Of a DNA stretch of 64,000 nucleotides, positions 54,001-57,492 are shown one piece after another. Every line of letters begins with the position of its first letter. Within the stretch, counting starts at the first letter, position 1. The position numbers and the translations under genes are program-made. Below the pieces are notes generated by a model, which had not been told where the DNA came from, ran no database searches, and saw nothing but the letters and a program-made list of their open reading frames with translations. This DNA comes from Escallonia rubra (lineage: Eukaryota; Streptophyta; Magnoliopsida; Escalloniales; Escalloniaceae), in assembly GCA_033065855.1 (NCBI GenBank), contig JAVXUO010002562.1, positions 186,001 to 250,000 on the forward strand, written 5' to 3'.

Positions 54001-56164
54001 TATATAAATAGGTGTCATGTATGGTGTTGAGTTAAGTCGCTAAAGATGGTCATATATGGCCGTTAAGAGTGTCTTCCCCTCTCTCCCCGTATCCACGTAT
54101 CTTGCATTACGATTTTTCATCAATAGACTAAATTCTAACATCCTAAATGTATTTTATTAATGATTTTTAACTGTAAAATTGCTACAGCAGATATATTATA
54201 TTGTATATAACATATGTACAGTATAGGATATAATCTGGGTCATGATATGGCTTCTATAAAACTAAGATAGCACATATCAAGTGGGAACACCATTTTCAGA
54301 GTCTAGAAGCTCGTCATAATTCTCAAACGCCAACTCAGTCAAGTTGAAGCCAAACTTGAAGCATGTCTGCAACTGATAAGTTCATAGTCTGCATGCCTAG
54401 TCAAACTTCTGAGTCGAGACAAAAATTCCTTGAGACCACAAAATTTTCACCAAAAGGGTATCAATGCACAAGTTTGCAATTTGAACCTCAACAATCCACC
54501 AAAAAAAACAACCACTCCCACACATTTCAAAATTAACCCAGTTGCATCAAACCGTGATAATAAATGGAAGAACATGTTGGGCAAGTGAAAAGAAGGCAAA
54601 GGAATCACTGCCCCTATGCGGCCATGCACACAGTTATTGCGAAGTAAATGAAAAAGTAACAAAATGGACTGGAAAAGTCGACGAGAGTTCCCCATACATG
54701 CATGAGTGAATCCCAGAAGCCCCAAATCACTAGAAACACATCCGAATCCCCTTTTCAGAGATTTTTCACCAGCCGAGGCATCATCTACTCTGATGAAAGT
54801 CATGCAAAAATCGCACCCACGTGGCGCCCTAAAAAGCAAGAGCCAGAGCTGAGGCTGAGGCTAAGGCTAGGGCTGAGCTAGGACGACAGCGACCGGCGGC
54901 TCACCCGCCGGTAATCCGCCGTCAGCAGCTGTGCAAGTAGAGGCGTGACCCCAGTAGGTGTGTCAGGTCGGGGTCAGTAGAGAGACAAGGCATTGAATGT
55001 GTAGATTGGGGTCTTTGAAAAAGATAGTCTTCGTGTGACTTCGCTTTCTACAATTGTACTCTTCGGTTTTCGTTGCGTTGCCTTCGTTCGTTCCACACCA
55101 CTTGCAGCACCTCCGTCCCATCTCCCTTCCCCAACCAAATACTACTGCGTAAAAGTTTCCTTGTTTTTAATTAATTAATTAAAGTAATAATGTTGTCCTC
55201 TCCACTGCTACGTATATTCTCGGGATTCCAAGTTCCAATACCTTCTTCACCTTGAAACCATTTTTTATTTTATTGGGTTGAACTTGTTTCAATGTCAATA
55301 ATCCCAATTGGATCGATCTCAAAGTACTTGGTTGAAGATTCATACGTCGCCAAAATGAAAAACTAGACTTTTGGCAACAAATTAAGGTACCTGTTTATTT
55401 TAGAAGATTGTTACTTTTACATTAAATGTATATTTTTTTATCATCGTGCCTCATTTAAATAGTCAATTTATAGTGAATTACTTTAGTCATCGTTTTCTTT
55501 ATTTTTTGAACCCTTTGTCCAGCCTTCTACTATTAAACTTTTTTTTTTTTGTAATTAGGATTGTTAGAAGAACCTCAAACTCTCCCATATAGCGAGAAAT
55601 ACGATTCTAAGTACGCAAAATTGCTTTTCACTAAGTGACGGTAAAAACATGATGTTAGAAATTACTACTAAAAATAGTATTAACAAAACTTAGTTACAAC
55701 TAATTGTTATTATATAGAGGCTCGAAGGGCATCTTTACTATCAGAGCTGCGTCGAAAATCTTTCTTTTGCTCTTCGCTGAAAAAAAAGACTGAGATCCTT
55801 TGCTTTACAATACTTCTGTCACAATAAAAGTTATTTTTAAATACATTTTAGTAACGAAATATTGTCATTTTAAATTTTAATAACAAAAATGAATACTAAA
55901 ACCACGATTCTTATCCCAAAAATACACCATGGCAATTGAAAAGACAGTGGTCAACGGTCAAAGAGAGGAACATATGGTATTATGGTATAAACAGTATAAA
56001 CTGTTAGGAGGGAATTTTCACCTAGCAAGGCAAATAATCACTGGGTTGGGGGGGGGATGGGGACCTACAAGCCTTTTACAGTTGAAGGAAATTTAAAGAT
56101 GAGGAGAGAGTGTGATTATACCCCCAGCATAGGACTCGTGAAGCTATCTGTTAATAATTCTACA
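51004..56164. other. intergenic, no gene recognised
   Basis: 5.2 kb of mainly AT-rich DNA. Frames at 51555-51959 (minus), 52376-52627 (plus) and 54447-54839 (minus) show no family features. 53460-53780 has the GGGTCTGTTTGAAA start and AAAACTCAAAA motifs common in hAT-type MITEs, but no right end was found. A GC-rich patch at 54830-54990 includes a GAGGCT hexamer run and CACCCACGTGGC (a G-box core CACGTG, near 54817), which could mark an untranslated exon or promoter. A faint AGCGACA-family relic lies near 55590-55720. Confidence 0.4.
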
Positions 56165-56238
56165 CCCTAGTGGAGTATATTAATTTGTCTCTTTGTTTAT
56201 AATTAAAACATCAACACTCGTCACTACAACATTTTTTC

Positions 56239-56275: not shown

Positions 56276-56324
56276 TCTCCTCTCATATATTTTCATAATT
56301 ATAAATGCTTTGCTTTATTTTATA

Positions 56325-57040
56325 GAGTTAATTACGCCATTGACCATTGAACTTATAGGCAAAATTTTTTTTGACCACTGGACATCAAATTGTGTCAAAA
56401 TGACCACTGATCTTTTAATTTTGTCCAAATAAGGTTATTCCGTTGAATTGAGAGAGAAGATTGAGACTCCGACGCCGATGCAATACAATCGGCATCATCG
56501 CGAGGTTATTCTTGACAGGCTTACGTGGAGTACTCAATTTGAAAACTTTTTGGCCACAAAGTGGACTGCAGCCAAGAGGTTTGGCCTTGAAGGTTGTGAG
56601 ACCTTGATTCCTGGCATGAAATAGATGTTTGATCGGTCGACAGATCTTGGGGTTGAGACCATTGGAATGTCTTACAGAGGAAGATTGAATGTTCTGGGTA
56701 ATGTTGTTAGGAAGCCACTACGCCAGATCTTTAGTGAGTTCAGCGGTGGCACAAAGCCTGTGGATGAAGTTGGGCTATACACAGGAACATGCGACGATGA
56801 AGGAGACGATAGAAGAGAGACCATCGGAATTTGCACAGAGAGAGAGAGAAATTTATTGAGGGACGGATTTGCCCCTAAATTAAATGACTTAACGGACTTA
56901 GATTTGACGGAATCTAACAGAGTGACTTAATTGAGCACAATTGAAGAGTCCAGTGGTCACTTTGACACAAATTGATATCCAGTTGTCAAAATGAAATTTG
57001 CCTAATCTAATAGTTCAATGGTCAATGGCGTAATTAACTC
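56325..57040. mobile_element. MULE-like element with captured gene fragment (Pack-MULE)
   Basis: Long terminal inverted repeats: left 56325-56410 begins GAGTTAATTACGCCATTGAC, and right 56950-57040 is its complement, ending GTCAATGGCGTAATTAACTC. The arms match over about 85-90 bases with scattered differences, including CAAATTGTGTCAAARTGACC. TTATTTTATA (56315-56324) and TTATTTTTATA (57041-57051) flank the element and fit a Mutator-size duplication with one base of slippage. Between the arms lies a fragment of 2-oxoglutarate dehydrogenase E1 and no transposase, the definition of a Pack-MULE. Confidence 0.75.
56453..56790 (+). pseudogene. 2-oxoglutarate dehydrogenase E1 fragment
   Basis: The translation matches the conserved start of the thiamine-diphosphate-dependent E1 domain of plant mitochondrial OGDH: WSTQFENFLATKWTAAKRFG, GCETLIPGMK, then RGRLNVLGNVVRKPLRQIF, SEFSGGTKPVDEVGLYTGT. 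About 110 residues of the roughly 1000-residue enzyme remain. A TAG at 56622-56624 replaces the glutamate codon after GMK, two residues are missing before GMSYRGRL, and similarity ends near 56790. A frame from 56625 to 56930 fuses the second half to element sequence. It is a captured fragment, not a working enzyme. Confidence 0.88.
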
Positions 57041-57336
57041 TTATTTTTATATATAATAATCTAGTATCTTCATTATGGATTGTAATCTTTTTTATTATAA
57101 AGAATAAGTTTTAGTGACGAGGTGGAAGAAGGCAGTGGCATCTACTCCCAATATGCAACTGTTCCAAAATTGGGAGATACCCTAGCAGCGCTACATACTT
57201 GAATCATGAGACGAATTTGTTTTCTATTTTGAATTTTGTTGTCAAACGATTTGGATGTAAGATGACTTTGGAGCTTTTCATTGGTAAATAAAGGACATCT
57301 TATCAACAACAACCAAAAAATGTTGTAGTGACGAGT

Positions 57337-57492
57337 GTTGACGTTTTAATTATAAACAAAGAGGCAAATTAATATACTCCACTAGGGAGTAGGGAGTGAA
57401 AATTATCTATTTCTGTTGACGTTTTAATTATAAACAAAGAGACAAATTAATATACTCCACTAGGGAGTAGGGAGTGAAAATTATCTATTTCT
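57337..57492 (+). repeat. 78-bp tandem duplication
   Basis: Two adjacent 78-bp units (57337-57414, 57415-57492), each starting GTTGACGTTTTAATTATAAA and ending ATTATCTATTTCT. They differ at one seen position (GAGGCAAA against GAGACAAA). The units include the right end of the outer TIR element and 27 flanking bases. Confidence 0.9.

Follow-up and report, generated by a model that had tools for sequence, protein, structure and literature searches.

A Pack-MULE carrying a fragment of a 2-oxoglutarate dehydrogenase E1 gene in Escallonia rubra, and a possible order of captures in its family

The window analyzed here, a stretch of 64,000 bases from contig JAVXUO010002562.1 of the Escallonia rubra assembly GCA_033065855.1, contains a short element with terminal inverted repeats (TIRs), flanked by a target-site duplication (TSD) and enclosing a piece of a 2-oxoglutarate dehydrogenase (OGDH) E1 gene. 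Its features are as follows.

56315-56324, no strand: left TSD, TTATTTTATA, from flank comparison
56325-57040: whole element, 716 bases
56325-56439, + strand: left TIR, about 115 bases, from arm alignment; 86.7% identical over 128 bases to the TIR of the transposase-bearing element L071
56448-56452, no strand: TTGAG, a 5-base microhomology at the internal-deletion junction; 783 bases absent relative to the fuller copy L058
56448-56794, + strand: captured OGDH E1 fragment, sense to the + strand, 95.5% identical to the OGDH gene on contig C1233
56622-56624, + strand: in-frame TAG, a G-to-T change private to the window copy among 13 OGDH fragments
56625-56930, + strand: 101-residue frame joining OGDH to element sequence, its OGDH part without sign of selection
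56659-56667 (approximate place), + strand: 6-base (two-residue) deletion
56795-56919, + strand: 3′ subterminal element sequence, common to family members without OGDH
56920-57040, − strand: right TIR, about 121 bases, from arm alignment
57041-57051, no strand: right TSD, TTATTTTTATA, with one extra T, from flank comparison

The inverted ends had been predicted from the letters of the window, but the length of 85-90 bases given for them was too short. In a global alignment the arms, of about 115 and 121 bases, were identical in 96 of 121 columns with 6 gap positions, and BLAST aligned them at 83% over 109/115 bases; the alignment thus runs over more than 100 bases, not the 40 or so that would speak against a transposon. 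The 22-base tip of the TIR was found at only two places in the window, the two arms, and at none in 100 shuffles. The flanks agreed at 6 of 9 positions when compared without gaps and differ by one inserted T, which bears out the predicted duplication of Mutator size with one-base slippage. Target duplications of 9 bases are typical of Pack-MULEs.

On either side of the element lies a 78-base sequence, forming an inverted pair with 96% identity (56160-56237 and 57315-57392), and a nearly identical direct copy lies at 57414-57492 (99% over 79 bases); this sequence was not found elsewhere in the genome among the matches listed. Perhaps a local duplication-inversion took place around the insertion. 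A dispersed repeat some 200 bases long occupies 57113-57326; 38 more places in the genome match it at 70-84% identity (40 of 44 candidates scored), and it adjoins CACTA/TAGTG motifs that we take to resemble CACTA ends. A search with the right flank revealed no empty site: the first 72 bases of the right flank matched nowhere else (40 of 44 candidates scored), and only the dispersed repeat further out did so.

The OGDH fragment spans element positions 124-470, that is, 347 bases or about 116 codons, close to the 110 codons first estimated. The TAG, the two-residue deletion and the 101-residue chimeric frame were all found as described; this frame is the longest in the 716 bases, and the element has no transposase of its own, again as predicted. 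Pfam assigned no family at E 0.01 to the two short OGDH frames of the window, and the fragment is named because of its match to the frame on C1233, which reaches the E1_dh family (PF00676) at 1.5e-48. Comparison of the piece with the genome gave 16 matches (16 of 16 candidates scored). Thirteen are fragments in 12 elements, one of which, on C1461, holds two, and the remaining three lie outside elements on C1233, C2814 and C2688. The stop-to-stop frames on C1233 and C2814 are 547 and 532 residues long, and the latter matches E1_dh at 3.6e-49. The 642-base stretch captured in L058 is 97.7% identical to C1233, compared with 86% over 636 bases to C2814, and on this identity the putative donor is the OGDH gene on C1233. 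Around each of these three loci outside elements, the 10 kb that we read held no TIR match. Alignment of the window fragment to the gene, proposed as a check of introns and divergence, yielded the divergence but was uninformative about introns: the captured piece lies inside a single open frame of C1233 and therefore does not distinguish capture from DNA from capture from RNA. The third OGDH-like stretch (C2688:14696-14851, in L023) has a 140-residue frame and groups with the C2814 gene in the tree.

A search of the assembly (566 Mb, 3222 contigs) for other copies of the TIR, also proposed at the outset, found the 28-base probe with at most 3 mismatches at 331 places (170 forward, 161 reverse), and the reversed control at none. 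We read 37 copies (L024-L060), picked by similarity to the window copy and so not a random sample of the 331 places; we placed their boundaries manually, guided by the BLAST ends, and those of L024, L029 and L030 may be wrong. Perfect 9-base TSDs flank 23 of the copies and 6 more match at 8 of 9 bases, while the remaining 8, the window copy among them, have neither. When flanks were paired across different copies, only 1 of 1332 pairs matched perfectly. Four fuller copies, L056-L059, have a common structure in different flanks, with a perfect TSD in three and 8 of 9 bases in L056. These are independent insertions of one structure, and the family has been mobile.

The same ends occur on elements with transposase sequence. 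L071, the relative whose TIR resembles that of the window copy, is 5340 bases long, has 122-base TIRs that are 99.2% identical and the TSD AAATTGATT, and contains a 606-residue frame matching DBD_Tnp_Mut (PF03108) at 1.1e-9 and the MULE transposase domain (PF10551) at 2.3e-9. The latter match stops at the end of the frame, at profile positions 2-78 of 99, and an intron or a break may follow. On the opposite strand, L071 217-807 encodes a GRF zinc finger (PF06839, 2e-07) in a frame of 197 residues. In a search with the L071 protein (72 of 1569 candidates scored), matches fell inside 18 TIR pairs among the 100 places listed, 15 of which are 5.2-5.4 kb; the genome therefore holds a putative source of transposase that has these ends. 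Two of these TIR pairs, C922:1157760-1163099 and C1378:462822-468161, are each 5340 bases apart, and their transposase frames have a rounded identity of 100% (bit scores 1429.6 and 1426.6), which suggests recent movement. The original reading as a Pack-MULE was right, since closely similar ends occur on elements coding both Mutator-type domains and perfect 9-base TSDs flank most of the copies read.

The window copy can be compared with L056-L059, which are 1444-1500 bases long, have the same two ends and carry approximately 630-642 bases of OGDH. Between the counterparts of element positions 1-128 and 124-716 they contain several hundred extra bases. The left part of L058 reads ...CCGTTGAATTGAG and its right part ...AATTGGTTGAG; in the window copy, the two are fused at the TTGAG common to both, with the loss of 783 bases relative to L058. 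Because of this fusion and the larger OGDH piece in L056-L059, the 716-base element is not the full capturing form but an internal-deletion product of copies of 1444-1500 bases.

The seams of the OGDH piece recur among the copies. The right edge lies at nearly the same donor base in 13 of 13 fragments in 12 elements, at different genomic places and within the same TIRs, and the left edge is common to five elements. L032, which contains no OGDH, shares the left sequence as far as the OGDH seam, and its right side reads CGGCGACGATGAAGGAGGCG, compared with ACAGGCGATG in the donor; there is therefore a 5-base match, GGCGA, at the right seam. L032 may be the pre-capture form or a form that lost OGDH. 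The tree of OGDH sequences was star-like; good support went to 2 of its 13 inner branches, and C1233 branches from the same polytomy as the element fragments. By itself it supports a single origin of the 13 fragments weakly (56/0), and it is because the seams are shared that we assign them one origin. Independent OGDH captures were rejected, as the fuller copies have the same edges.

Further gene pieces lie around these seams. A PADRE-like piece lies directly to the right of OGDH in L031, L024-L028 and L030, and L024-L028 and L030 have a second one before OGDH. Pfam recognized PADRE only weakly, at 0.0015 and with 19.4 bits where the cut-off is 29.6; the candidate donor is on C923, with 98% identity over 54 residues. 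A 3-ketoacyl-CoA synthase (KCS) piece (PF08392 at 2.9e-74) is present in 14 of the 37 copies, with PADRE-like sequence on both sides in all 14. Its candidate donor is within a KCS array on C1721, where several KCS matches stand in a row (C1721:87232-123304). The match at 87232 is 100% identical over 181 residues to the KCS copy in L048 and is the likely donor, judged by this similarity. L029, L048 and L054, which have no long OGDH piece, retain a 40-base match spanning the OGDH seam. For the 5′ segment, two candidate sources were considered: L073, which itself matches family TIR sequence, and L074, whose match covers only about 135 bases. In L027 (C1461), element positions 1-2100 contain the block of OGDH and PADRE-like sequence twice in tandem.

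The nesting of these pieces suggests that OGDH was captured first, then a PADRE-like piece beside it, then a KCS piece inside the PADRE-like sequence. A G-to-C change at fragment position 418 agrees with this order: it was found in all 8 OGDH fragments from elements bearing PADRE-like sequence and in none of the 5 OGDH-only copies, the window copy included. Identity to the donors runs against the order, being 94.9-97.7% for OGDH, mostly 92-96% for PADRE-like pieces (extremes 71.7-98%) and 96.2-97.1% for KCS in the three copies with 580 bases, although unequal rates in the donors could account for this. Four-gamete conflicts at 20 of 136 site pairs may reflect exchange between copies or repeated mutation. 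We offer only tentatively, as a reading just short of an even chance, that one Pack-MULE lineage may hold a layered record, with OGDH first, PADRE-like sequence at its right seam, KCS within that, and patches perhaps exchanged between copies.

Substitutions in the OGDH fragments were polarized relative to C1233 with C2814 as the outgroup, and the neutral expectation was random placement on the same base and context. Thirteen of 99 distinct differences were left out, where C2814 shared the state of the element or differed from both sequences. The 86 distinct derived changes comprised 69 replacement, 11 silent and 6 stop changes, close to the expected 65.8, 15.7 and 4.3, so there is no hint of purifying selection on the OGDH frame. 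At least one in-frame stop by substitution was found in 7 of 13 fragments. C-to-T and G-to-A changes in the element OGDH were more frequent at CG or CHG sites (26/81) than at CHH sites (17/174; p = 2e-5), and in the elements the excess held separately at CG (9/29, p = 0.004) and CHG sites (17/52, p = 2e-4). As a control, we compared the two OGDH genes in both directions, and a CG excess was present (32/168 versus 84/1041, p = 5e-5) but no CHG excess (27/274, p = 0.33). Of the two, then, only the CHG excess sets the elements apart in this comparison. An excess at CHG is the pattern expected of transposon-type methylation, and its presence here fits DNA methylation of the elements.

Could the family act on the OGDH gene? 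Of the exact 21-mers of the window copy, 175 also occur in the C1233 frame and 2 in that of C2814; for the 37 copies together the counts are 554 and 66. Thus small RNA from the window copy could in principle match an OGDH gene. The OGDH-bearing family might then be a source of small RNAs acting in trans on C1233 and weakly on C2814, with a regulatory effect. Small RNAs can guide methylation, to which the CHG excess points, and passages of a 2026 review treat captured pieces in maize as siRNA reservoirs (PMC13317346). However, any recent capture yields common 21-mers, and the C1233 gene retains its long open frame; we consider such regulation improbable. Far less probable still is a selected chimeric peptide from the fusion of OGDH with element sequence, the other product raised in the original prediction. 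Although its frame is open in the window copy and the fuller copy L059 reads through the same join, in L057 and L058 it has a different end beyond OGDH, and the substitution counts and in-frame stops described above give selection no support, so a selected peptide is unlikely. That an ordinary OGDH pseudogene came by chance to lie between two inverted repeats, for which the single stop and small deletion might speak, can be dismissed because the recurrent edges are common to separate insertions; nor is there a larger pseudogene around the fragment, as OGDH similarity ends within the element here and likewise in the 11 further elements with OGDH that we read. In itself, the window copy is most likely without function.

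With high confidence, we therefore read the element as a non-autonomous Mutator-like element, a Pack-MULE, whose lineage would have gained OGDH from the C1233 gene, been spread by the transposase of relatives and later undergone an internal deletion. In the proposed history, an internal gap in an ancestral element of the TIR family would have been filled from the OGDH gene now on C1233, with template switching at short matches; the recurrence of the seams in independent insertions and the GGCGA match on the right argue for the switching, and gap repair is the presumed setting. The product would then have been spread by the transposase of relatives with the same ends, which exist in the genome and whose activity and role in moving it we presume. 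A deletion between two TTGAG sites took about 783 internal bases from one copy, either before it inserted at its site in the window or afterwards, and other copies of the lineage gained a PADRE-like piece and a KCS piece, probably in the order given by nesting. The copies now decay; purifying selection does not hold them back, and their excess of transitions at CHG sites fits DNA methylation.

Pack-MULEs of rice were reportedly described by Jiang et al. in 2004. Those of rice and other plants resemble the present family in their long TIRs, 9-base TSDs, lack of transposase, host gene pieces and many copies; the features tested here match this known kind, and the window copy alone is ordinary. 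In contrast, the TIR family and the donors OGDH E1, PADRE-like and KCS were not met in the literature searched, and the relative order of captures is readable here. For rice, the review cited above counts over 3000 Pack-MULEs, which carry parts of more than 1000 genes (PMC13317346). Captures from several genes are also reported in passages on Pack-TYPE elements with several donor loci (PMC8903248) and on chimeric MULE-derived genes (PMC4858842), which likewise join more than one locus per element; compared with those passages alone, the difference is that a piece nested in an earlier capture gives an order. Gap filling guided by microhomology is a published model (PMC8277862), and, in the passages of that paper on gap-filling and fork-switching models, the Pack-TIRs of animals share short microhomology at capture junctions and multicopy spread by transposition, whereas the present family is Mutator-like, from a plant, and its mechanism is read from the seams only. 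In the open-licence literature, no paper was found that couples Pack-MULE with oxoglutarate, or Mutator-like elements and gene fragments with 2-oxoglutarate dehydrogenase. Among the matches listed there, those for sequential-capture wording did not use the term Pack-MULE, and those for ketoacyl-CoA synthase did not contain that name.

That Mutator-like elements capture genes is well known, but the individual steps can seldom be seen. One genome here holds a possible pre-capture copy, copies with a single and with later captures, candidate donors and relatives with transposase, which opens the gap-filling model to a test at each seam. The readable capture order of the family is the part worth keeping. 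If the layered record is true, repeated capture near one seam would point to a gap-repair step that favours one break region, and sequence would record the order in which the captures took place.
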